This document shows, one piece after another, positions 2,901-27,099 of a stretch of 27,099 nucleotides of DNA; positions within the stretch are counted from its first letter, which is position 1, and each line of letters opens with the position of its first letter. The translations under genes and the position numbers were made by a program. The notes under the pieces were generated by a model, which worked only from the letters and a program-made list of their open reading frames with translations, was not told where the DNA came from and did no database searches. The DNA is taken from positions 1-27,099 of IMG/VR virus record IMGVR_UViG_3300044634_000251. One strand, 5' to 3'. The stretch comes from a virus.

Positions 2901-3077
2901 ATGATGGATGCAAAGAAAGCAGTTCGCAAGCATGAGCAAAACATGCACCCCGGCAAAACGCCAACCAAGCTGCGTGCTGGTGGCAAGACTAACAGCGACA
3001 TGCTGAAGATGGGCCGTGGTTTGGCTAAAGTTGCCAACCAAATGAACCCCGGTCGTCGTTCTGGTCGTGGAGGCTGA
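2901..3077 (+). CDS. Small basic conserved phage protein (58 aa)
   Basis: 58 aa, starting at ATG 2901 (a second ATG follows at 2904) with AAGGAG 4-9 nt upstream. Read by eye: MMDAKKAVRKHEQNMHPGK, then KLRAGGKTNSDMLKMGRG and a tail ending RRSGRGG. It is strongly basic with no hydrophobic segment. Small proteins with HExxMHxGKxPTKLR-like sequence are, as I recall, common beside adaptor genes in podovirus-like phages; none has a known function. Its TGA at 3075-3077 is immediately followed by the next ATG, so the pair is likely coupled. It could bind DNA or stabilise the head-tail junction; that is inference. Confidence 0.65.
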   Translation: MMDAKKAVRKHEQNMHPGKTPTKLRAGGKTNSDMLKMGRGLAKVANQMNPGRRSGRGG

Positions 3078-3078
3078 T

Positions 3079-3279
3079 ATGGCTGAGTACAAAAAACCCA
3101 AGGTGTATCCTTCTGTGACTGTGGGCGAAGAGCCAGCAAAGACAACTATGCGCAAAGCAAACGTGTCTGTTGCAAACACACGTAGCCAAGACTACCCTCC
3201 TACCAAAACCACTGGTATCAAAATCCGTGGTACTGGCGCGGCTACCAAAGGTTTGATGGCCAGAGGCCCGATGGCATGA
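3079..3279 (+). CDS. Small basic protein with GTGAATKG motif
   Basis: 66 aa from ATG 3079. An in-frame ATG at 3067 lies inside the upstream gene; GGAGG at 3069-3073 sits correctly for 3079. The C-terminus reads GIKIRGTGAATKGLMARGPM, a Gly-rich tag of the same flavour as other small proteins in this window (Gly, Lys and Arg alternating, ending in Met-Ala). The N-terminal half is Lys/Pro-rich. Its stop overlaps the ATG of the next gene (ATGA at 3276). The 'RGTGAATKG' end is, from memory, a recurring signature in metagenomic phage genomes, always next to adaptor genes. No function is known. Confidence 0.65.
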   Translation: MAEYKKPKVYPSVTVGEEPAKTTMRKANVSVANTRSQDYPPTKTTGIKIRGTGAATKGLMARGPMA

Positions 3280-4004
3280 CCTACAACGAGTTGATTGCTG
3301 CTATTCAGTCGTACACCGAGAATACGTTCCCGGAAACGTACCTTGCCAGTGGAGCAACTGTGTCTTCAACGACGCAGTTGAACACCTTCATTGAGCAGGC
3401 TGAGCAGCGCATTTTCAACACGGTGCAGTTCCCATCGTTGCGTAAAAACGTAACGGGCATCACATCAATCGGAAATAAGTACTTGTCATGTCCGGCGGAT
3501 TTTTTGGCGTCTTATTCATTGGCTGTTGAAACCGCCGATGGACAAGAGTTCTTGTTGAACAAAGATGTGAACTTCATCCGTCAGGCATATCCCAAAGCCA
3601 CTGACACTGCCACGCCTAAGTACTACGCCCTGTTCGGGCCAACAACTACCAATGACCCCAGCCCTGTCATCACAAATGAGCTGAGCTTTATTCTTGGCCC
3701 AACACCTGATGCGGCATATAACGTTGAGCTGCACTATTACTATTACCCCGAGTCAATCACCACTGCGGCTTCTGGCCAAACTTGGCTGGGCGACAACTTT
3801 GACACCGTATTGTTGTACGGTTCATTGGTTGAGGCTTACACTTTCATGAAGGGTGAGCAAGACGTGATTGCGCTGTATGACGCCAAGTACAAAGAAGCAC
3901 TGGCAATGGCTCAGCGTCTGGGTGATGGTCTGGAGCGCAGCGACGCATACCGAAGCGGTCAGTTCAGAGTTCCTCCTCTGGCTCAGAATAACGGAGTGCG
4001 TTGA
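3276..4004 (+). CDS. Phage adaptor protein (SU10/T7 gp11-like)
   Basis: 242 aa; ATGA overlap with the previous gene. The N-terminal region is helical (LNTFIEQAEQRIFNTVQFPSLR), leading into beta structure: CPADFLASYSLAVE, FLLNKDVNFIRQAYP, TPKYYALFGPT and LSFILGPTPDAAYNVELHYY. It ends in helices (LLYGSLVEAYTFMKGEQDVI, YDAKYKEALAMAQRLGDG). This order and the motif 'LGPTPDAAY-VELHYYYYPE' are typical of phage adaptor proteins that form the ring between portal and tail in short-tailed phages. I am confident of the family type by resemblance, less so of its exact position relative to the 308-aa protein. The stop overlaps the next ATG (TGATG). Confidence 0.75.
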   Translation: MTYNELIAAIQSYTENTFPETYLASGATVSSTTQLNTFIEQAEQRIFNTVQFPSLRKNVTGITSIGNKYLSCPADFLASYSLAVETADGQEFLLNKDVNFIRQAYPKATDTATPKYYALFGPTTTNDPSPVITNELSFILGPTPDAAYNVELHYYYYPESITTAASGQTWLGDNFDTVLLYGSLVEAYTFMKGEQDVIALYDAKYKEALAMAQRLGDGLERSDAYRSGQFRVPPLAQNNGVR

Positions 4005-4426
4005 TGGCTTTCCAAGGCAACTTCTCATGCAACACGTTGCGTACGGCCTTGATGGACGGCACGATGAACTTCTCGTCCGACGTGTTTAAACTGGCCTTGT
4101 ACACAAATGCTGCAACACTGGATGAAACGACCACGGGCTACACAGCCACAGGCGAGGCTTCTGGTGGCAACTATGTGGCTACCGGGCAAGTAATTGCCGC
4201 CACTGTCTCCACAGCCACGACATCGGCGGGGAGTGTTGTTTACGTCACGTTTGCAGCGCCAGCATGGACTGGGTCGATTACTGCTCGCGGGGCATTGATA
4301 TACAACAACACTACTGGGGCCGCAGTTTGTGTGCTTGATTTTGGCAACGACAAAACCTCAACTTCAACTTTCACCGTGGCGATGCCTGCTAACACCAGCA
4401 CATCAGCACTCATTCGGCTTGTATAA
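4004..4426 (+). CDS. Beta-rich conserved virion-type protein
   Basis: 140 aa, starting at ATG 4004 inside TGATG (a TTG at 4001 would add one residue but overlaps the stop and is less likely). Sequence features: FKLALYTNAATLDETTTGYT near residues 28-47, WTGSITARGALIYN near 86-99, and VCVLDFGNDKTSTSTFTVAM near 107-126. The pattern is an all-beta sandwich rich in Thr and Ala with no signal peptide or membrane segment. I recall similar proteins next to adaptor and fibre genes in many phage genomes, annotated hypothetical. Decoration, collar or fibre-associated roles are possible. Confidence 0.6.
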   Translation: MAFQGNFSCNTLRTALMDGTMNFSSDVFKLALYTNAATLDETTTGYTATGEASGGNYVATGQVIAATVSTATTSAGSVVYVTFAAPAWTGSITARGALIYNNTTGAAVCVLDFGNDKTSTSTFTVAMPANTSTSALIRLV

Positions 4427-4435
4427 GGAGCAACC

Positions 4436-5011
4436 ATGTTCAACGAAAAAGTAGCATCAACAGACAATGTCAGCGCGGGCTTAGTTGCTCGTACCGGTTT
4501 TTCAGAAGGCACCCGCGCAGGCGGCGTGTTTCATGTCGAGTGTTTTGACAAAGACGGCAACTTGAAATGGAAAACTTCCGAACACAACTTGGTTGTGAAC
4601 GAAGGATTGCAGAGCATGAACACCCAGTATTTCAAGGGTTCAACCTACACCGCCGCTTTCTTCCTTGGTTTAATTACCGGCCCCGGTTCTGGTACAACCT
4701 TTGCCGCAGCCGACACTCTGGCTTCTAAAGCATGGACTGAGTACACCGACTACTCTGGCTCACGCAAGGCCGTGACTTTTGGTACGGCTACAACCGCAGA
4801 CCCTTCAGTCATCAGCAACTCTGCTTCGCCTTCTTCCTTCACCATTTCAGGTGCTGGTGGAACAGTGGCCGGTGCATTTTTGTGTACCGTGTCCAGCGGC
4901 ACATCTGGCGTATTGTTTTCGGAAGCCGACTTCCAGTCTCCCGGCGACCGCACCGTTGTGTCTGGCGACACTTTGAACGTGACCTACACATTCAGCCTCG
5001 ACGCTGCTTAA
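4436..5011 (+). CDS. Beta-sandwich conserved virion-type protein
   Basis: 191 aa; ATG 4436 is preceded by AAGGAG with 6 nt spacing. Motifs: DGNLKWKTSEHNLVVNEGL at residues 39-57, YFKGSTYTAAFFLGLITGP at 62-80, AWTEYTDYSGSRKAVTFG near 101-118, and a C-terminal SGDTLNVTYTFSLDAA. The LKW-x(5)-NLVVN-x-GL start and the SGDTLNVTYT end mark a family that, as I recall, is common in tailed phages near head-completion and tail genes. It is all-beta, without membrane segments. A decoration or accessory tail protein is the most likely role, by position only. Confidence 0.6.
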   Translation: MFNEKVASTDNVSAGLVARTGFSEGTRAGGVFHVECFDKDGNLKWKTSEHNLVVNEGLQSMNTQYFKGSTYTAAFFLGLITGPGSGTTFAAADTLASKAWTEYTDYSGSRKAVTFGTATTADPSVISNSASPSSFTISGAGGTVAGAFLCTVSSGTSGVLFSEADFQSPGDRTVVSGDTLNVTYTFSLDAA

Positions 5012-5878: not shown

Positions 5879-8719
5879 ATGGCACTCGTAGTCAAAGATA
5901 GAGTTCAAGAAACGACCACCACCGTTGGTACAGGAACAGTGACTCTTGGCGGCGCGGTTCTGGGCTTTCAGACGTTTGCAATTATTGGTAACGGTAACAC
6001 TACGTATTACGCAATTGTTGACCCGACTACAGGCGAGTGGGAAGTGGGCATTGGCACATACACAGCTTCGGGCACAACGTTAAGCCGTACCACTGTTTTT
6101 GAGTCCAGCAATTCTGGTAGTCTGGTGAATTTTGCCGCCGGGACAAAAAATGTATTTTGTACATATCCAGCGGAAAGGGCGGTGTATTTAGACGCAGCAG
6201 GGTCTGCTGTGACTTTGTTAGACATTGGCACACTGGGTGCGAGCACTGCAAACATTACAACGGCAAATATCACGTCCGGTACAATTACCACAACCCCGGT
6301 TAACAACACTGACATCGTTAACAAGGAATATGCGGACGCTATTGCATCTGGCATTCATTTCCACGAAGCGGTGTCCTTGGCAACCACCACAGCGTTGCCA
6401 GCAAACACATACAACAACGGCACATCTGGGGTCGGTGCAACGCTTACAGGAAACGCTAATGGCGCTCTGTCGGTGGACTCAACGCTTACGGTTGTTACAG
6501 AACGCATACTTGTAAAAAATGAAGCAACGGGCGCAAACAACGGTGTGTATGTTGTTACTCAAGTTGGCTCTGCTGGAACGCCCTACATACTGACCCGCGC
6601 TACGGATTTTGATACCGCTGGCACTGGGGTTGACCAGATTGACGAGGGTGACTTTTTCTTGGTTACCAACGGCGTTGTTAACCTCAATACCGCTTGGGTG
6701 CAACAGACCGCCCCACCCATTACAGTTGGCACAACGGCGATTGTTTTCCAGCAGTTTTCTGCCCCTATCACCTATACCGCAGGGACAGGACTGAGTGAGT
6801 CCCCAACCTACACATTCAATATTGCCAACACTGGTACGGCGGGTACGTATGGCTCAGCATCGTCAGTCCCAGTCTTTGTTACCAACGCGCAAGGCCAAGT
6901 TACATCGGTCACAAATACAGGTATTGCTATTTCTTCAGGCGCAGTCTCAGGCTTGGCAGCTTCAGCAACAACGGACACAACCAATGCAGACAACATTACA
7001 TCGGGTACGCTTGGCACTTCACGTTTGTCGGGAAGCTATACGGGAGTTACTGGGGTCGGTACTCTTACTGCTGGCACTTGGAACGCTACTGCTATTAACG
7101 CCGTTTATGGTGGTACGGGTATTACTTCGTATTCTGTGGGAGACATTGTTTACGCCGACACGACCACGTCGCTCGCAAAACTCGCGGATGTAGCTGTTGG
7201 CAATGCGCTGATCTCTGGCGGCGTGGCTGCGGCTCCAAGCTGGGGCAAGATTGGTTTGGCAACGCATGTCAGCGGAACACTGCCAATCGCCAACGGCGGA
7301 ACAAACAGCACAGCTACTCCAACAAACGGCGGGGTTGTTTACGGCACAGGTACAGCACAAGCGTATTCAACAGCAGGCACATCTGGACAAGTTTTAACTT
7401 CGGCTGGCGCTGCTGCGCCAACGTGGACAACAGCAACCAACGCAAATACAGCGTCTGCAATCGTTCAGCGAGATGGCTCTGGCAACTTCAGTGCTGGAAC
7501 AATTACTGCGGCATTAAGCGGGAATGCGTCTACTTCGTCTACTGCAACAAGCGCAAACGGTTTAAGCGGCATAAATTCAAACATCAGCTCCGCAGTTCAA
7601 ACAGGAACAATCAGTTCCATGCTTGCTCAGGATACAAACGCAAGTTTGTACAGATATACGGCGGGGGCAGTTGCCGCGTTTATTACAGGCCAAGCAATAA
7701 ACACCACTGGCAATGCGGCTACTGCAACCGTTTTACAAACCGCAAGAACAATAGGCGGCGTATCTTTTAACGGCTCTGCAAACATTAACTTGCCCGGTGT
7801 AAATGCGGCGGGCAATCAAAACACCACGGGTTCATCAGGTTCATGCACAGGTAATGCGGCAACTGCAACCGCATTGTCCAGCGGGCAATCAAATTGGAGT
7901 GGTACGGGCGTTCTTGGTAACGTGGTTGGTTTGATGGCGTGGAAGAACTACGGCAACAGCCACGTAATTTTTGATGCTTCCAATAGCACATCTCCAAGCG
8001 GCGGGGCAGTAAACAACACCAATTCAAGTGTTGCTTGGAGTGCGACATACCCTACATTGATGGGTTGGAATGGGTCAAGTACTTATGGTGTTCGTGTTGA
8101 TTCAGCAAGAATTTCCAATCTTTCAGATAGAGCGCCAACATACTTTTACATTGACCAAAACTATGGCTATAGCGTAGTTGGACTTTATACCAGCACAATT
8201 TTCCAAGGCGTGTTTGCTATGGGAGATGCGTATAAAACTACTGCTGGCGGCGGCATAAGTAACTTGTATGGAATGACTTGGTCTTATCCATCTGCTGGCG
8301 GTATTGCTGGAAATTTGTCTTCCCACGGAATGATTGTGGCAATCAATGGTGGTTTTGGTTCGTGTATGTCATACAACGTGACAGCATCTGCCAACGTCAC
8401 TGCATATTCTGATGAGCGGCTTAAAAAGAATTGGGAGCCGCTGTGTGACAACTTTGTTGAAAAGTTGGCTGGCGTTAAAGTTGGGACATACGAGCGTATA
8501 GACCAGCCAATCGTTCAAGTTGGTGTCTCAGCCCAATCACTGGAAAAAGTTCTGCCTGAAGCTGTGACAACAGGCTCGGATGACATGCAAACAAAACACG
8601 TTGCTTATGGCAACGCAGCTTTGGCGTCCGCTGTTATGCTTGCGCAGGAAATCGTAGAGCTTAAGAAAATGATGAAACAAATGCAAGAAGAAATTGCAGA
8701 ATTAAAAAGAGGTGCGTAA
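5879..8719 (+). CDS. Tail fibre with C-terminal peptidase S74 intramolecular chaperone
   Basis: 946 aa, starting at ATG 5879 (upstream AGAGG). Residues 1-105 form a virion-attachment-like domain (KDRVQETTTTVGTGTVTLGG ... AGTKNVFCTYPAERAVY). A shaft region follows (IVNKEYADAIASGIHFHEAV near 146-165, then Thr/Gly/Ala-rich repeats with VSGTLPIANGGT and SGQVLTSAGAAAPTW). A receptor-binding-like domain lies at ~700-830 (MAWKNYGNSHVIFDAS, TLMGWNGSSTYGVRVDSARI). From S844 the sequence YSDERLKKNWEPL begins the S74 domain, with VGVSAQSLEKVLPEAV and a terminal coiled coil (EIVELKKMMKQMQEEIAELK). In this family the domain trimerises the fibre and cuts itself off near the Ser-Asp pair; S844-D845 and nearby Lys residues are present. 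It acts as the cell-adhesion fibre; receptor unknown. Confidence 0.85.
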   Translation: MALVVKDRVQETTTTVGTGTVTLGGAVLGFQTFAIIGNGNTTYYAIVDPTTGEWEVGIGTYTASGTTLSRTTVFESSNSGSLVNFAAGTKNVFCTYPAERAVYLDAAGSAVTLLDIGTLGASTANITTANITSGTITTTPVNNTDIVNKEYADAIASGIHFHEAVSLATTTALPANTYNNGTSGVGATLTGNANGALSVDSTLTVVTERILVKNEATGANNGVYVVTQVGSAGTPYILTRATDFDTAGTGVDQIDEGDFFLVTNGVVNLNTAWVQQTAPPITVGTTAIVFQQFSAPITYTAGTGLSESPTYTFNIANTGTAGTYGSASSVPVFVTNAQGQVTSVTNTGIAISSGAVSGLAASATTDTTNADNITSGTLGTSRLSGSYTGVTGVGTLTAGTWNATAINAVYGGTGITSYSVGDIVYADTTTSLAKLADVAVGNALISGGVAAAPSWGKIGLATHVSGTLPIANGGTNSTATPTNGGVVYGTGTAQAYSTAGTSGQVLTSAGAAAPTWTTATNANTASAIVQRDGSGNFSAGTITAALSGNASTSSTATSANGLSGINSNISSAVQTGTISSMLAQDTNASLYRYTAGAVAAFITGQAINTTGNAATATVLQTARTIGGVSFNGSANINLPGVNAAGNQNTTGSSGSCTGNAATATALSSGQSNWSGTGVLGNVVGLMAWKNYGNSHVIFDASNSTSPSGGAVNNTNSSVAWSATYPTLMGWNGSSTYGVRVDSARISNLSDRAPTYFYIDQNYGYSVVGLYTSTIFQGVFAMGDAYKTTAGGGISNLYGMTWSYPSAGGIAGNLSSHGMIVAINGGFGSCMSYNVTASANVTAYSDERLKKNWEPLCDNFVEKLAGVKVGTYERIDQPIVQVGVSAQSLEKVLPEAVTTGSDDMQTKHVAYGNAALASAVMLAQEIVELKKMMKQMQEEIAELKRGA

Positions 8720-19238: not shown

Positions 19239-21910
19239 ATTACTCCCGTAGACAACTTGAAGCATTTGGCGAGCCGCTTGGCGAATCAGTTACCCGTTTA
19301 AAACCCGGCGGACGCATCTATGGTGGCGGCGGATCAAAAGCCCCTGCCCAAACATCCCAAACCAACACTACGGATTTGCCCGAGTGGGCAAAGCCACATG
19401 CCAAAGAAATTTTGGCTAGGGGTAAAGCGTTATCCAATGCTCCATACGAGACATACGGCGGAGACCGCACGGCTGATTTTGGTGCCATGCAAAAAGGCGC
19501 TATGGAGGATGCAGGGACAATGGGTCCTGCGGCTCAGTTGGGCACGGCTACCGGTTTGGCTGGGGACGTTGGACGACGTGCTATGGGCACGAACTACGAA
19601 GCCGGTCAGTTTGCCAACCAATTCCAAGCTCCTGACGCATACCAAGCTGGCCAGTTCAATCCTGCGAATGTCCAAGCCCAAGGTTTGCAGCAATATCAGA
19701 TGGGGCCAGCCGAACGCGTACGTACCCAGAGTTTTGCTCGCCCCGGTGCAGCGGAATCATTTATGTCCCCCTACATGCAGAATGTGGTGGATGTTCAGCA
19801 ACGTCAAGCCCAACGTCAAGCAGACGTTGCAAGAACGGGGCGTAGTGCCCAAGCTGTAGGCGCAGGTGCGTTTGGTGGTTCTCGTCAGGCCATCATGGAA
19901 TCTGAAGCCGCTCGTAATCTGGCGCAACAAAAAGGCGACATCCAAGCGCAGGGACTCCAGTCTGCTTACGGCCAAGCGCAACAACAGTTCAATGCTGAGC
20001 AACAAGCTCGTTTGCAAGCCCAACAAGCCAACCAACAGGCTGGACTTACTGTTGGGGGTCAAAACCTTGGCGCTTTGCTAGGTGTTCAACAACTGGGCGC
20101 GGGCCAGAACCTCCAAGCACAGTTGGCTAATCAGCAAATGGGTTTGAATGCCCAACAGATGTACGAACAATCTCGTCAGTTTGGCGCTGGTCAAGGTCTG
20201 CAAGCTGCGGGGCTCGGCGCTCAGTATGGTCAAGCCGCTCAACAGTTGGGTGAGCAGTCTCGTCAGTATGGCGCGGGCTTGGGGATGCAGGGGCTTCAAA
20301 CCGCTTTGCAATCCGCCGGACAGCTTGGTCAGCTTGGCGGTCAGCAGTTCCAGCAAGGTATGGACATCAACAAGTTGCGCTCTGCTTACGGCGGAATGGA
20401 ACAAGGGCAGCGCCAAAGAGATGCGGACATTGCGTATCAAAACTTTGTTAATCAACAAAGCCACCCGTACAAGCAAGTGGGTTTTTACTCCGACTTGTTG
20501 CGTGGTACGCCTACTGGCTCTTCAAGCGTTACCAACATGTATCAGCCTCAAGGTTCTGGTTTGCAAGATGCAGCCGGGGTAGCTATGGGCATGTACGGTC
20601 TGAGCAAGTACATGGCTGAAGGTGGCGTGACCAGTCAAGGTAACGTAGAAAGCATTATTGACAAGCTTGGCCCAGATCAGTTGCAGCAAGCTCGTGAAAA
20701 TGCCTTGGACCGCCGGGATATGGACACCGTAGCTGCAATTGACGAGCGTTTGGCTGAGCTTGCTCAGTCTAAGTCTATGTATGCGGGTCTTGGCGGCGCG
20801 TTTGACCAAATCCCAGAAGATCGCCAAGAAGCAATGATGGCGGGCGGCGGTATTGTTGCGTTTGCTAATGGTGGTTCTTATTTAGACCAAGCCGAAAAAT
20901 CACGCGCAGAACAACTTGCTTATATAGATCAAGCAACCACAATGCCTACTCCAGAAGACCGGAGAAAAGATATTGTGGCGCAACGGGACATGATCAAAGG
21001 CTTGTACGAACCAAGCGTTTTACCTAAGTATCTGGAAGAGACAAAGGCTGAGCGTGCCAACCTTGGCAAGAACATGGATGAGGCTAGAGGTCTTGGCGCT
21101 CTACTGGCTGCTGCGGAAATGATTGGCGCTAGAAACTTCCGCGAGGGAGCCAAGGCTTCTACTAAGGCATTTGTTGGTGAAGTAAGTCGTGTTGCTAAAG
21201 AGAACAAAGAAGCAGACCGCTTGCTCCGTCAGTCTGAGATTCAGCTTGCCACAGCAAGCGAGTTGTACAACAACGGTATGACTGATAAGGCAATTGCCGA
21301 AGCTGATAAGGGGCGCTCCGCAAAAGCAAGAGCCGCTGAACTTAAAGCTGGCGTTGCTGGTGACACAGCCAAGATGTACTCACAACTTCAAAATACACAG
21401 CTTGGTAAGGATGCCACTATTGCGGCGGCAAACATCAGCGCCAAAGCTCATCGTGATACGGCCAACAAACCCGGCCAGTTGGAGCGTATGGTTTCTGACT
21501 ACGAGCAACGCCTCGGTAGAAAGCTCACGGCTGAGGAATACGTGAAAGCTACGGAGAAAATGGGCGCTGCTTCGTATGGTGCAAAATACACCGGCCCGGA
21601 CACCACGTTTACAAATTCTGCAAAGTTCCAGAAAGACCTTGCGGATCGTACAAAAATGTTGCAGTTACAAAAGAGTATGCCCAACAAAACACAGGCAGAA
21701 ATAGACGCAATAGATTCACAGATAGAAGCAGAGCGCCAAAAATTGGTGGAAGAGTATCGGGCTACCATAGCTTCTGGTGTTACATCAAAAGCCGCCCCCG
21801 AAGCTGCTCCAGCAGCCGCGCCCAAAGGTCCACGTCCGGGTACGATACAGGATGGCTACCGTTACAAAGGCGGTGATCCAGCAAATCCAACCAGTTGGGA
21901 AAAGGTGTAA
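19235..21910 (+). CDS. Gln-rich internal virion / ejection-type protein
   Basis: 891 aa; ATG 19235 overlaps the acetyltransferase stop. N-terminus ends in a Gly-rich turn (RIYGGGGSK). Residues 190-375 are Gln/Ala-rich with coiled-coil-like repeats (QQFNAEQQARLQAQQANQQA, then LGALLGVQQLGAGQNLQAQL, QQLGEQSRQYGAGLGM). YMAEGGVTS (459) and MAGGGIVAFANGG (535-547) are short Gly-rich turns. Residues 560-760 are helical and charged. It ends PGTIQDGYRYKGGDPAN. No enzymatic motif. Length, helix content and position before the giant ORF suit an internal core or ejected protein like T7 gp15; homology is not proved. TAA at 21908. Confidence 0.6.
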   Translation: MNYSRRQLEAFGEPLGESVTRLKPGGRIYGGGGSKAPAQTSQTNTTDLPEWAKPHAKEILARGKALSNAPYETYGGDRTADFGAMQKGAMEDAGTMGPAAQLGTATGLAGDVGRRAMGTNYEAGQFANQFQAPDAYQAGQFNPANVQAQGLQQYQMGPAERVRTQSFARPGAAESFMSPYMQNVVDVQQRQAQRQADVARTGRSAQAVGAGAFGGSRQAIMESEAARNLAQQKGDIQAQGLQSAYGQAQQQFNAEQQARLQAQQANQQAGLTVGGQNLGALLGVQQLGAGQNLQAQLANQQMGLNAQQMYEQSRQFGAGQGLQAAGLGAQYGQAAQQLGEQSRQYGAGLGMQGLQTALQSAGQLGQLGGQQFQQGMDINKLRSAYGGMEQGQRQRDADIAYQNFVNQQSHPYKQVGFYSDLLRGTPTGSSSVTNMYQPQGSGLQDAAGVAMGMYGLSKYMAEGGVTSQGNVESIIDKLGPDQLQQARENALDRRDMDTVAAIDERLAELAQSKSMYAGLGGAFDQIPEDRQEAMMAGGGIVAFANGGSYLDQAEKSRAEQLAYIDQATTMPTPEDRRKDIVAQRDMIKGLYEPSVLPKYLEETKAERANLGKNMDEARGLGALLAAAEMIGARNFREGAKASTKAFVGEVSRVAKENKEADRLLRQSEIQLATASELYNNGMTDKAIAEADKGRSAKARAAELKAGVAGDTAKMYSQLQNTQLGKDATIAAANISAKAHRDTANKPGQLERMVSDYEQRLGRKLTAEEYVKATEKMGAASYGAKYTGPDTTFTNSAKFQKDLADRTKMLQLQKSMPNKTQAEIDAIDSQIEAERQKLVEEYRATIASGVTSKAAPEAAPAAAPKGPRPGTIQDGYRYKGGDPANPTSWEKV

Positions 21911-21913
21911 AAG

Positions 21914-24900
21914 ATGGCTACTGGGCCTTGGGATCAATACAAATCAGGCCCAACCAAAGGGCCTTGGGATCAGTACGCCGCTGCGCAAGAACAAGAACAA
22001 GTCGCGACGCAAAAACCTGAAACAGCACAAGAATCTACTTCAAATCCGTTTGCGGGGATGATTGGTCAAGCTGCGTCTTTAACTGGTGCCGGTATTGAAG
22101 CAGTTGCAGAAGTTGCCGAGCGAGTCGGCGACAAATTGGAATTGGCTGTGCCATTGTCAGACATAAGCCCAGAAGACATTAAGAGCAAAAAACAACTTCA
22201 GCCTTTGTTTGACTGGGCAAAGTCGTTAAAGGATTTTGACGAAAGCATTGGCTACCAACCAAGCACACAACTTAAAGATTTAGGTACTAACCCACTTAAC
22301 GCCGTTCCTTTTATCGCCGAGCGTGTAATTACGTCTGCCCCTGACATGGTCGCCGCAGTTGCTGTTTTACCAGCATATGTAATGGCGCGAACAAAACAAA
22401 TCTTGGACGAGCGTGTTAAGAACGACGAAAAAACGCTTGACGACGCTACTGTTGGCGATGTAACTGCTGCGGCTACTGCCGCTGTCATTGAGTCCACACT
22501 TGAACGCTTCGCCACCAAAGGTTTGTTTAAACCTACTACCGCTAAAACAGGTACAGGTAGGGTCGCCAAAGAAACAGGTATTCAAGCGGGCACTGAAGTT
22601 GCTGAAGAAGAAGCGGCTTATCTTGGCGAAGCTGCGGGCACAAAGAAAGGGCTGAGCGGGGAAGAAGCTCTGACTCGCGGCGCTGAAGCAGCAATTGTTG
22701 GTGGTGGCCTCGGCGCTACTGTGCAAGGCACAAAAGAACTTCTTGCACCAAAGACGCCGCCCACTACCGAACAAGAACGCCAAACAATCCTAGACACTTT
22801 GGCAGGCGACATGCAGGAGCCAGCCGATTTGTTTGCGGATCAAGAAGGCCAGCAAGCTGCACCAAAATCTCAAGTTGATCGCTACAAGCAGCGTGCTGAT
22901 GAAGCGTTGCGGACTTCTGCGCAATCTGCGAAGTATGGTGACGTTGATCAAACATTACCGTCCTCCAACGAGCCACCCGGTTTGTTTACAGATGTAGACA
23001 CCGGCGCTGCAACCACCGCAACATCAAGCGCCCCTGCTGTTCGTGCACCAGCAGCCCCCGCTCAGTCACTTGAAGCCTACAGCGATTTCGTACGGCAGTA
23101 CACAGAATTGCGGGATGAGTACAACTCTCTGCCATCTGGCCAGATAGATCAAGCGGGCATGAACTTGCGTAAGACCATCCAGAAAAATCTGGCTGAAGTC
23201 GTTGACGCCAACATGGGTTTGATCCGCAGCAAAGGTGTGGCCAATCAACTTAAGAACCCTGTGTTTGATGGTTCGCAAGTATTGGCTCGACTTGAGCCAA
23301 ATGTCGGCCAACCCCGTGCTATGCAAGGGAACTTGTTTGGTACGTTCCAAGCTGCCACCCGCCTCGCAACAAACGCTATGGCTTTGTCGGGCCAAAACCC
23401 AGATGGCGCAATCCAAGAATTGGAAAACAAACGCGCTCGTATGCAGGAAAAGGTTGACTCGGGCGGTTATACCGACGCAGAAGTTATCAGCAGACGTCCT
23501 GCTGGTATGACATCTGGCCAAGCACTTAAAAACAGAGATTCAATCCTCCAACGTCTTCTACAAGAAACAAACGCTGAGATTGACCACGCAATCGACATTG
23601 TGCAAAAGCGTACGGGCCAGCCTCGCGCTATGCAGGGTAAATTGTTTGGCCAACCAGAAGGCCAGCCTGACGTTGGTACAGAGAAGGCCGAAAATATTGA
23701 AGACGTGTTTAACGCTGCAAACGCAGCTGAATTGAACAAGTCTCGTATGCGGGCAACAGAAAAATCCAAAAAAATTGAAGCTGCTAACAGGGGCCGCAAC
23801 CAGCAAGCTGGGGCTTCAATGACTGCAAGCGAACGTGTTGCGCTCTTTAAGTCTGAGAGAAAGCGCGTTGAAGGTGAACTTGCAAAAGCCCGCGCTGAAT
23901 TGACGCGGCTGCAAAGTCTCGCCGCCCGCCCTGCTGGTGAGATAGGGTATAGGCCCACATCTGAAGATATTCGTGCGGTGACTGACACCATCAACGGGTA
24001 CGAAAGAACTTTGCAAGGCGTGCGTGAGCAGCTCCAAGATGCAGAAGCCGATTTTGATAACGGCATAGAAACGCCTACTCCACGTCAGCGGCAGGAGATT
24101 CAGCGCGTAGATTTGACGGCTGAACAAGAGCAGTTGTTTGATACAGAAAATTTTGAGGATAACGCCGTAGAAGTAACCGAGCGTAAGGCAGCGCCAATAG
24201 TAGATGAGCGCGGTGCAATAGTGCCATCCTCTAAAAAAGGAGAGAACCCAATTGCATCTGCCGGGTTTAAAACTCTTGATGAAGACAACAACATATCTGA
24301 CAATCTTGTGGGCGCAACTTTTATTACCGGTATGGATGTATCGGCAAGAAACAAAGGCGCTGGTACAAGACTTTTAAACGCAATTACAAACTGGGCTGAT
24401 ACAAATGGCAAGACGTTGGTTCTTGTCCCTTCTGCAAATCCAGACCCTGAGTTGGGTGGGTTATCCCAAAAACAATTAAAGGCTTGGTATGCACGCAATG
24501 GATTTGAAGACCGTGTAGATTACATGGTTAGAGTTCCTACTGAAGAAAGAACTCAAGAAACCGAAAAAATCCAAGAAACTAAACCCGCTGAGATTGTCCG
24601 CGAAGGTAAAAAGCCACCAGAGAAATCTGTAAAAGCCCCTGCTACAGACACAGAACACATTGTGCAGACAGAAGAGGGCGGCAAGATCAAAGGTTTCTTT
24701 GACTCCATCCTGCCTGCATCGAGCTCTCCTGCGGAGCAGGAACGTCACGGTAATTCAAAGAACACCGCTGCTGAAACCATGCTGGAGTTTGATATTGCCC
24801 GACCGGGCGAGACAACCAGCGCTGGTTCACAGAAGATGCTCGACTACCTTGCCCGCCGTGTGGGTGGCCAAGAGAAACTAAACAAACTTCTGGCTGCGTT

Positions 24901-27099
24901 GCAAAATGCGTCGCCCGATGAACAATCGCGCCTACTTAAAAACGCAGGGCTCCCAGACCTCACCACCCGCCGTGGTATGGATGAGTTCAGTTCGCAGGTG
25001 CAGGAATATGTTGACCAGATGGTGGCCACAGGTGAAGGCCCGCTGTACAACATAAGAACAAGCAAGATGCGTCCGTCCCAAGTTACTGGGACAAAGCTGC
25101 CGTACCAAGAAACTATCACCACTGCTGTTACGGTTACACAAAGATACGACACACCTCTTGGTGAAAAGCCACGACGTCCAAGTCAAGGTATCAAAGAAAT
25201 AGTTCGTGACATCAACGACAATAAGCTGCGTGCGGCTGCATTGGTCCTCAAGCAGATGACTGGGAAGATTTCTCCCCAAGCGCAGGCTGCTATTACATAC
25301 CTGACCAACCTGAACCGTTCCACATTTGGGGATGCACTCAGGGATTTGGCGTTCGATCTTGCGTACTTTGAGCTTGACCCTAAATATTACGGTGCAGGTT
25401 CTACGTTCTACAAAGAAGGCGGTAAGTACGCACAAGACTTCCGTGCATGGATTGAAACCAATCTTGATGCAAGCACAGTTGCGTTACTTGATGAGTTGAT
25501 TGCGGAACACAAACAAAACGCAGCAGAAGCTGAAAAGTTTGAGAACGCCATAACTGCTTACAACCAACTGTTAGAAATTGCGGCGGAAAAAAATCGCAAG
25601 AAAGCTGAAGGGCAAGGGGCCAAGTTGCCCAAAGCACCACGCAGGAAGAGAACCGCCAAAGAACGTCTTGCCACTATGCAAGAGGAAGCGGAGACTGAAG
25701 CAGGTGAAGGCGAAGAAACTTTAGAGCCGTTTACAGAAGCAGACACAAGGAACTTACCCACTGTTGAGATGCTTACTGAAGTGCATCCAGCCATCCGTCG
25801 ATTGCTGATGGACGGTGATACACACGGCGCTCTTGAACTTCTTGCGCAAGTAAAAAACAACAAGTACTACGCTGAATTGGCTCAACGCATCCTCGACACC
25901 GGCTTTACAGCTGAGACACGGTTGATTGACCCCGACACTATAAAGTCGTTGTCTAACGACCCGAAAGTAACTGAGTCTTTGAACGAGCGGTTAGATGCTC
26001 TGCGTGATTTGGTTGAAACTTTGTTCCCGCAAGAACAGCAAGCTTCCATCATCAGCGATTTGAAATCCGGCAAGTTGCGTAATCTTTTATACGCGCTTGA
26101 AACCATGCAGGGCACGTTGGAGAAAAACGGTGGGACTGAGTCCAACCAGCAGCTCCTTGATAGCGTAATAGACTTGGTGAACCGCGAGTTTGTATGGATC
26201 GGTAAGTACGAACCAGCCAGCGACATAATCGTCATGCGCCAAGGCGTGGGCCAACTTACGAACCACTTGTTGTTGCATGAGAGCTTGCACGCCGCTGCAT
26301 CTCATCTGTTGGACAACCCTAATCGGTTGGTTGGGATTCAACGCCAAGGTTATGACCGCCTCAATGAGTTGTTCCAGTACTCCAAGGGTTTGCTGGAACA
26401 GAAGGGCATAACTTCAGACACCGTGTATGGTCTGCAAGATTTGCATGAGTTTGTTTCTGAGGCAATGACAAACCCAGAGTTGCAAGCGTTGCTGCGTTCT
26501 ATTCGGTACAAAGCTGCACCGTTCTCTTTGTGGAATCGCTTCACTGACTCTGTAAGCAAACTGTTCAACGTAAAACCCGGCGAGCCAAGCAACGTCATGG
26601 TAGAGGTCATGTTTGCTGCTGATGCAATGATGGCCGGTACGATGTCCTTGGAGGGTATGCAAGGGTCAAGCACTCCAAGAGCGATGGCCACAAAAGGCCC
26701 ACGCCGACGCACAACTGTGCCACCCGGTATGCCAAACCAGCCTTCGACAATTCGTCGCTGGATGATGGCCGATACGTGGACATCAGGAAAGATGCGAGAG
26801 ATTCGCAGTATGAACGCAGGGGCGCGTAAAGCGTATCTCGGCATGTTGACATTGCGCCAGATCAATGATTTGGTTGGCGGACGTATCGGGCAGATTGGCA
26901 ACTTCATCAATGTGACTGAGAAGTTCCTCGCCCGCAAGTCTCAGATATTGAAAGAGTCGGGCGATATTGCCCAGAAGTGGGAACGTCTGCAAGCTGCTGA
27001 CCCTGAGATGTCTCGTAAGCTCGGTGTAGTGATGCACAGCGCAACCATTCTTGAGATCGACCCAGACAAAGCTACGTTGGCCCAGCGTACAAACAACGC
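21914..27099 (+). CDS. Giant polyvalent-type protein with GNAT-like and HExxH metallopeptidase-like domains (3'-truncated)
   Basis: ATG 21914, three nt after the previous stop, opens a frame that I read to 27099 without a stop: more than 1,728 codons, C-terminus outside the window. N-terminus has GPWDQY twice (residues 4-9 and 16-21). Residues 60-270 are partly hydrophobic. GQPRAMQG-x-LFG occurs at 465-476 and 568-579. Residues about 765-876 form a GNAT-like domain (RNKGAGTRLLNAITNW, 812-827; WYARNGFED, 858-866). Residues 880-1440 are helical and charged. LLLHESLHAAASHLL carries HExxH at 1455-1459, with LHEFVSEAM (E1512, E1516) as possible third ligand. The last stretch (LGMLTLRQINDLVGG, VVMHSATILEIDPD) resembles regions of large phage polyvalent proteins. 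It is probably packaged and injected with DNA to act early in the host; that is inference. Confidence 0.7.
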   Translation, partial: MATGPWDQYKSGPTKGPWDQYAAAQEQEQVATQKPETAQESTSNPFAGMIGQAASLTGAGIEAVAEVAERVGDKLELAVPLSDISPEDIKSKKQLQPLFDWAKSLKDFDESIGYQPSTQLKDLGTNPLNAVPFIAERVITSAPDMVAAVAVLPAYVMARTKQILDERVKNDEKTLDDATVGDVTAAATAAVIESTLERFATKGLFKPTTAKTGTGRVAKETGIQAGTEVAEEEAAYLGEAAGTKKGLSGEEALTRGAEAAIVGGGLGATVQGTKELLAPKTPPTTEQERQTILDTLAGDMQEPADLFADQEGQQAAPKSQVDRYKQRADEALRTSAQSAKYGDVDQTLPSSNEPPGLFTDVDTGAATTATSSAPAVRAPAAPAQSLEAYSDFVRQYTELRDEYNSLPSGQIDQAGMNLRKTIQKNLAEVVDANMGLIRSKGVANQLKNPVFDGSQVLARLEPNVGQPRAMQGNLFGTFQAATRLATNAMALSGQNPDGAIQELENKRARMQEKVDSGGYTDAEVISRRPAGMTSGQALKNRDSILQRLLQETNAEIDHAIDIVQKRTGQPRAMQGKLFGQPEGQPDVGTEKAENIEDVFNAANAAELNKSRMRATEKSKKIEAANRGRNQQAGASMTASERVALFKSERKRVEGELAKARAELTRLQSLAARPAGEIGYRPTSEDIRAVTDTINGYERTLQGVREQLQDAEADFDNGIETPTPRQRQEIQRVDLTAEQEQLFDTENFEDNAVEVTERKAAPIVDERGAIVPSSKKGENPIASAGFKTLDEDNNISDNLVGATFITGMDVSARNKGAGTRLLNAITNWADTNGKTLVLVPSANPDPELGGLSQKQLKAWYARNGFEDRVDYMVRVPTEERTQETEKIQETKPAEIVREGKKPPEKSVKAPATDTEHIVQTEEGGKIKGFFDSILPASSSPAEQERHGNSKNTAAETMLEFDIARPGETTSAGSQKMLDYLARRVGGQEKLNKLLAALQNASPDEQSRLLKNAGLPDLTTRRGMDEFSSQVQEYVDQMVATGEGPLYNIRTSKMRPSQVTGTKLPYQETITTAVTVTQRYDTPLGEKPRRPSQGIKEIVRDINDNKLRAAALVLKQMTGKISPQAQAAITYLTNLNRSTFGDALRDLAFDLAYFELDPKYYGAGSTFYKEGGKYAQDFRAWIETNLDASTVALLDELIAEHKQNAAEAEKFENAITAYNQLLEIAAEKNRKKAEGQGAKLPKAPRRKRTAKERLATMQEEAETEAGEGEETLEPFTEADTRNLPTVEMLTEVHPAIRRLLMDGDTHGALELLAQVKNNKYYAELAQRILDTGFTAETRLIDPDTIKSLSNDPKVTESLNERLDALRDLVETLFPQEQQASIISDLKSGKLRNLLYALETMQGTLEKNGGTESNQQLLDSVIDLVNREFVWIGKYEPASDIIVMRQGVGQLTNHLLLHESLHAAASHLLDNPNRLVGIQRQGYDRLNELFQYSKGLLEQKGITSDTVYGLQDLHEFVSEAMTNPELQALLRSIRYKAAPFSLWNRFTDSVSKLFNVKPGEPSNVMVEVMFAADAMMAGTMSLEGMQGSSTPRAMATKGPRRRTTVPPGMPNQPSTIRRWMMADTWTSGKMREIRSMNAGARKAYLGMLTLRQINDLVGGRIGQIGNFINVTEKFLARKSQILKESGDIAQKWERLQAADPEMSRKLGVVMHSATILEIDPDKATLAQRTNN

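Follow-up and report, generated by a model that had tools for sequence, protein, structure and literature searches.

Matched terminal tags and upstream C-terminal domains suggest a docking system for a giant polyvalent protein in a phage ejection module

Introduction

Except in a few models, little is known of how phages choose the proteins that they load and inject together with their DNA. In encapsulin cargo-loading peptides, cohesin-dockerin pairs and polyketide docking domains, a short terminal element or mini-domain addresses the cargo and is portable between cargos. The closest described systems among phages are those of T7, in which gp16 forms a tape that stitches the C-terminal parts of gp15 (PMC8954989), and of N4, in which the giant polymerase gp50 is thought to follow via its N-terminal domain contacting the tunnel protein gp51 (PMC12633501). 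N4 gp50 also carries an MPTase (HExxH-type) domain, as described in the study that defined the polyvalent class of proteins and listed LPD39 as potentially enzymatic (PMC5512222). A giant homologous to the one analysed here, gp69 of Burkholderia phage JC1, was detected with 51 unique peptides by mass spectrometry of purified virions (PMC9144972).

Here we analyse a viral contig of 27,099 bases (IMGVR_UViG_3300044634_000251), referred to as the window over its whole length, which ends within the gene of a giant protein. As in T7 gp15-gp16, the larger ejected protein of this locus would bind, through a stretch at its N-terminus, the C-terminal part of a tunnel protein. The T7 contact is, however, made by an extended tape, whereas the window giant carries short, typed tandem tags, and no exchangeable C-terminal mini-domain like that of the window pair was found in a review of the T7 system (PMC8954989). 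The N4 pair is alike in its giant last-ejected protein and its HExxH-type domain, but gp50 is a virion RNA polymerase, and its interaction is not described as one of typed tags, unlike the typed and modular pair of the window. No RNA polymerase family was matched across the 2,564 aa of the window giant, which thus does not class as an N4-type virion RNA polymerase. The proposed partner is a neighbouring ejection protein, whereas that of encapsulin peptides is the shell, and several apparently orthogonal types occur within one phage family here, in distinction to the encapsulin, cohesin-dockerin and polyketide cases.

Results

A giant polyvalent protein follows ejection-type genes

The frame at 21914-27099 begins with an ATG and stays open over 1,728 codons, which reach the window end, as the sequence-only reading of this DNA had described. 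A scan of viral contigs retrieved a second record (L002, IMGVR_UViG_3300034018_000288) that is identical to the window in an overlap of 13,336 bases (0 mismatches) and extends the frame past 27099 to a TAA. The complete protein has 2,564 aa, and neither a stop nor a frameshift lies near the window end. In L002 the TAA is followed by a G+C-rich hairpin and then by a convergent DUF927 primase/helicase-type gene.

Family models place the giant among known proteins. Beyond the window, the PLxRFG model (NF032893) is matched over positions 1-680 of 681 with 444.6 bits (cut-off 100), and LPD39 (PF18858) is matched with 68.7 bits against a gathering cut-off of 27. The C-terminal half also matches PHROG families, including the DarB-like antirestriction family phrog_10089 (8.6e-85); among isolated phages it matches 69 records, with identities of about 24-29%. 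Wide conservation is restricted to this half, which lies beyond the window: a tblastn search with the window part of the giant alone matched no phage record. A scan of bacterial genomes for a host, with the alignment of the giant's clade, gave no match.

Like other polyvalent proteins, the giant is a large polypeptide that unites several distinct domains (LPD39, PLxRFG, HExxH and GNAT-like regions), and its gene stands among those of virion proteins, with an ejection gene upstream. The LPD39 and PLxRFG models above their cut-offs and the PHROG matches bear out its earlier description as a polyvalent-type protein. The further suggestion of an undescribed host-takeover system is not supported, since NCBIfam, Pfam and PHROGs already have a name for the family. 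The giant adds an ordinary, if large, member to the known PLxRFG/LPD39/"DarB-like" polyvalent proteins. A role in host takeover is possible, and the match to phrog_10089 predicts one in anti-restriction. The giant has in common with its relatives in Bcep22, JC1, Skulduggery and PEp14 the C-terminal half, the large size, the multi-domain layout and the gene position after ejection-type genes. It differs from them in its N-terminal half and in being shorter (2,564 aa versus about 3,000-5,000), and it has at its ends tandem tags that match the upstream protein and that are absent from the Bcep22-like relatives examined.

Table 1 Features of the ejection module in the window, with positions counted from its first base.
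Feature	Position	Strand	Remarks
Virion structural protein, 766 aa	14660..16960	+	phrog_3287, 1e-54
Ejection-module protein, 477 aa	17344..18777	+	
Separate GNAT acetyltransferase gene, 154 aa	18774..19238	+	Ejection module
Upstream ejection-type protein, 891 aa	19235..21910	+	phrog_4287 DNA ejection protein, E 2e-6
C-terminal mini-domain of the upstream protein	21827..21907	+	Putative socket for PWxxY tags
Giant PLxRFG/LPD39 polyvalent protein	21914..27099	+	First 1,728 of 2,564 codons; ends outside the window
Candidate docking tag 1, GPWDQY	21923..21940	+	Residues 4-9
Candidate docking tag 2, GPWDQY	21959..21976	+	Residues 16-21
GNAT-like insert in the giant	24203..24508	+	Residues about 764-865; optional in relatives
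HExxH domain	25736..26638	+	Residues about 1275-1575; motif itself at 26276-26290
Start of the LPD39 domain	26822..27097	+	Residues 1637 on; runs outside the window into PLxRFG

The genes upstream of the giant are listed in Table 1; the 477-aa protein had no family match. A similar order, consisting of a structural protein, an acyltransferase (GNAT), one or two virion structural proteins and the giant, is found in several of the matched isolate phages (Bcep22-like and related), and Skulduggery, Parlo, Atu_ph08, LASTA and JC1 have an acyltransferase gene at the position of the 154-aa GNAT gene. The family models, this Bcep22-like order and the presence of JC1 gp69 in virions agree with the earlier proposal that the giant lies next to ejection-type proteins and is likely packaged. 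We infer from the homologues, in particular JC1 gp69, that virions carry the giant and eject it together with the DNA. In one related contig (L003:1-1360) the body of the upstream ejection protein has diverged from that of the window, the junction is identical and the giant matches, which looks like recombination.

HExxH and GNAT-like regions of the giant

The HExxH motif (residues 1455-1459) is invariant in 27/27 relatives at identities down to 46%, as is a glutamate downstream of it, in an HEF motif of a later helix. Zincin-type metallopeptidases combine HExxH and a third ligand within a zincin fold. An AlphaFold2 model of the region reached a mean pLDDT of 83. Nothing in the PDB was matched at E below 0.001, while matches with probability 1.00 were obtained to large polyvalent proteins, to a virion RNA polymerase and, in Pseudomonas podoviruses, to internal core proteins. 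For the core proteins and the virion RNA polymerase the E values are 2e-3 to 3e-3 and the TM-scores low, and only part of the model therefore resembles them. The resemblance to these three groups places the HExxH module among virion-found proteins. The LPD39/PLxRFG half is predicted to be helical, at low confidence (AlphaFold pLDDT 56.5).

The GNAT-like domain is less clear-cut. All six members of the insert match Acetyltransf_7 (best 5e-5) and have the G-x-G, but the window copy, at 21.9 bits, stays below the Pfam cut-off of 27, and several close relatives of the giant are missing the insert. Profile comparison gave no support for its being a copy of the adjacent GNAT gene.

The giant carries typed tags that match the C-terminus of the upstream protein

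The N-terminus of the giant (MATGPWDQYKSGPTKGPWDQY) contains the tag GPWDQY twice, and its C-terminus (GPWNKYKTPAMETAEE), read from L002 beyond the window, contains a third copy, GPWNKY, at residues 2549-2554. Close relatives of the giant have ends of the types GPWxxY, NPFxxF or DYAxLASQFGG, in two N-terminal copies and one C-terminal copy, with a single type per protein; the C-terminal copy of one of them (L012) is degenerate, NPFGRD. In a census of 94 full-length PLxRFG proteins, made with shuffled controls, tandem tags of many types stand at the N-terminus of about a third. C-terminal copies that match them occur in two clades, that of the window and another with NFFDQFD/NYFDQFD.

The C-terminus of the upstream protein changes with the tag. 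It reads GTIxDGxRxKGGDPxNPxxWEKV beside PWxxY tags, PSxxxxxFDxxFGPGAAAKxLG beside NPFxxF or NFFDQF tags, APDGKTYRFxTQAEADxF beside DYxxLA tags and FLxAARxxNPxxSDxxLxxYYxxxYG beside DPF tags. Tag type and upstream type agree in 22/22 PLxRFG giants with typed tandem tags: PW/GGDPW in 3, NPF/FGxGAA in 10, DPF/YYxxYG in 7, which are all the giants on which the DPF pair rests, and DYLA/APDGKTY in 2. The C-terminal copy, about 7.5 kb from the junction, is of the same type in all 13 giants that carry one, which come from two clades. None of eight upstream C-terminal ends scored above a family cut-off in Pfam.

In 59 further PLxRFG pairs there is neither a typed tag nor a typed upstream domain, which, together with the census, rejects a rule that all PLxRFG giants carry matched ends. 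Because these pairs include the Bcep22-like type, for which there is virion evidence, the proposed docking pair is not essential for packaging in this family.

Among same-residue degenerate codons, 261/529 differ between tandem copies. The repeats are thus held at the protein level, and a recent DNA duplication is rejected as the origin of the tandem tags.

Some giants begin with other tandem repeats: NWWESAPLAQE (L019), GFSFADA (L040), FDPDAYLAKK (L122), LDDIDxMLQ (L033), TNPKTGEKLFLVGGxW (L072/L121) and FDxxGAxxAGY (L151/L153/L156). The upstream proteins beside them end in LPSGTTFLAPDGSVRTKP or DQQALEWAKANPDDPRAAQIKQKLG, among others, and these are perhaps extra pair types. In Skulduggery, Parlo, PEp14 and LASTA (L020, L021, L025, L029) the upstream protein has a DxKTGxxx-like end and the giant a single PLxxxxxxLSEQ-like motif at its start, perhaps a pair type without tandem copies.

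The pairing recurs in distant phages and with unrelated cargos

A tblastn search of a phage collection with the last 30 residues of the window's upstream protein returned 25 records. In 7/7 distinct phages examined (F116, 8P, USP_18, EBPR podovirus 2, Bradyrhizobium ppBeUSDA76-2, Aeromonas BUCT695 and phage T5S1) the domain forms the C-terminus, and tandem PW tags stand at the start of the next gene. The tagged cargos range from 197 aa to about 5,000 aa and include a virion-type lysozyme. This 197-aa protein, from phage T5S1 (L173:12505-13098), resembles internal virion lysozymes and has two N-terminal PW tags, and its gene adjoins the matching C-terminal domain. Searches of isolate phages with three other C-terminal domains gave no or few weak matches.

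We then scored the first 70 residues of the next gene in 150 loci of viral contigs that were fetched by three of the upstream domains alone. The few loci already known are among them, and all come from one collection and are hence non-independent. A matching tag was present at 70/70 loci with the PW domain (tandem in 62), at 65/70 with the NPF-like domain (53 tandem) and at 9/10 with the DYxxLA domain (7 tandem); the remaining five NPF-like loci and one DYxxLA locus had no regex tag. Only one tag of a foreign type, a single copy, was seen across the 150 loci, and 569 other ORFs of the same loci gave a background of 2 PW, 12 NPF and 1 DYLA matches, none of them tandem. The NPF and DYLA patterns were revised once after a first pass, in which stricter versions had matched 38/69 and 5/11 loci, and the PW pattern was left unchanged. 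The gene with the N-terminal tag was adjacent to that with the upstream domain in 126 cases and non-adjacent in 0. Most cargos have no C-terminal copy: among 103 complete ones, one had a regex match. A narrower scan with the DPF partner domain, for which a first scan had found no conserved stretch, returned already known loci only.

Bodies and ends have different histories

Between the window and the relative L009, the upstream bodies are 91% identical over 846 residues and the C-terminal bodies of the giants 88%, and the ends are 22% (last 30 residues of the upstream protein), 19% (N-terminal tags) and 25% (C-terminal tag) identical. L004 shares the window's type, and the two upstream proteins are 50% identical in the body but 67% in the last 30 residues. 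The cargos form one large cluster that mixes all three types and about 30 small ones, and the upstream proteins do likewise. Fast and therefore rough trees require at least 27 class changes for the cargos, 24 for the upstream bodies and 9 for the giants. Exchange acts separately on the bodies of the cargos, the bodies of the upstream proteins and the tags.

Discussion

Comparison of the sequences establishes the pairing, its specificity, its exchange, its independence from both protein bodies and its maintenance at the protein level. We consider it probable that a cognate docking pair physically couples the giant, a virion-carried PLxRFG/LPD39 protein, to the ejection protein encoded upstream. 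Tandem aromatic GPWDQY tags in a flexible N-terminus, together with one C-terminal tag, would bind a domain of roughly 27 residues that forms the C-terminus of the upstream protein. The latter would be a tunnel or core subunit, as are T7 gp15 and N4 gp51, and the giant a last-ejected cargo, as are T7 gp16 and N4 gp50. An oligomer of the upstream protein would present several sockets, and a cargo with two or three tags would gain avidity. Through the pair, the cargo would be loaded into the particle and would leave it in a set order. That the proteins bind directly, that the giant is loaded into virions and that ejection follows this order is what we infer from the comparisons.

Tag and domain are always adjacent, and therefore linkage alone could preserve the pairing. 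A mobile junction cassette, made up of the 3' end of one gene and the 5' start of its neighbour, would then recombine as a single unit, with no binding between the proteins; the adjacency in 126/126 cases where both were seen would suit this, as would the contig L003, identical to the window at the junction and different in the body of the upstream gene. The distal C-terminal copies of 13 giants are the main evidence against pure linkage, because their types match away from the junction: at a distance of about 7.5 kb the tag switches type in step. The tags are, moreover, repeated and conserved at the protein level with different codons, and the pairings persist across very distant phages and unrelated cargos, which makes a cassette of this kind unlikely.

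The tags might instead serve an activity of the giant after injection, such as DarB-like anti-restriction, the upstream domain being merely a structural end. Polyvalent proteins are indeed proposed effectors (PMC5512222), the C-terminal half of the giant matches DarB-like families (phrog_10089), and an optional GNAT-like insert suits an effector cargo. An effector role is compatible with docking and does not exclude it, but taken as the explanation of the tags it leaves both the tracking of the neighbour's C-terminus by tag type and the presence of the same tags on a lysozyme and other cargos unaccounted for, and we regard it as very unlikely. That the tags bind the interior of the capsid or portal, in the manner of encapsulin cargo-loading peptides, would be in keeping with the layout of tandem short motifs in flexible proline-/glutamine-rich ends. 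Tag type, however, follows the upstream C-terminus with almost no exception, and such loading seems highly improbable.

A docking pair thus remains our preferred reading, and the recurrence of the matched pairs in far more than a hundred other phages suggests that a tag/domain system of this kind couples injected proteins in general. It is apparently undescribed, and the sequence-only reading had not noted it: in the open-access literature there was no prior report of the tag motifs or of ejection-protein docking. Several mutually exclusive pair types exist and are swapped as matched sets between phages and unrelated cargos. Chances are about even that these form a modular orthogonal docking code of at least four pair types, probably more, which joins exchangeable cargos, lysozymes as well as giant polyvalent effectors, to the ejection apparatus, with payloads gained by swapping matched ends. 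If true, this code would serve phages as a general system for addressing the proteins that they deliver and would explain how payloads are swapped in ejection modules without loss of the connection. A tag and a domain that can be read from sequence would list likely injected cargos from genomes, including "hypothetical" ones, and the interaction of ejection proteins would become testable with short peptides.

Other features of the locus

The convergent DUF927 gene just behind the giant encodes 950 aa (L002:16108-18957, minus strand) and is of constant length in L002, L004, L008 and L011; a SNF2-type helicase lies farther on (L002:20629-22020). At 5879-8719 the window encodes a tail fibre of 946 aa, which has a Peptidase_S74 chaperone domain close to the C-terminus. 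Inside the giant, GQPRAMQGxLF(G) occurs twice, at residues 466-476 and 569-578 (23309-23341 and 23618-23647). Sister clades keep these copies as Q-G/S-x-LF, and we take them to resemble the bacterial sliding-clamp binding motif.
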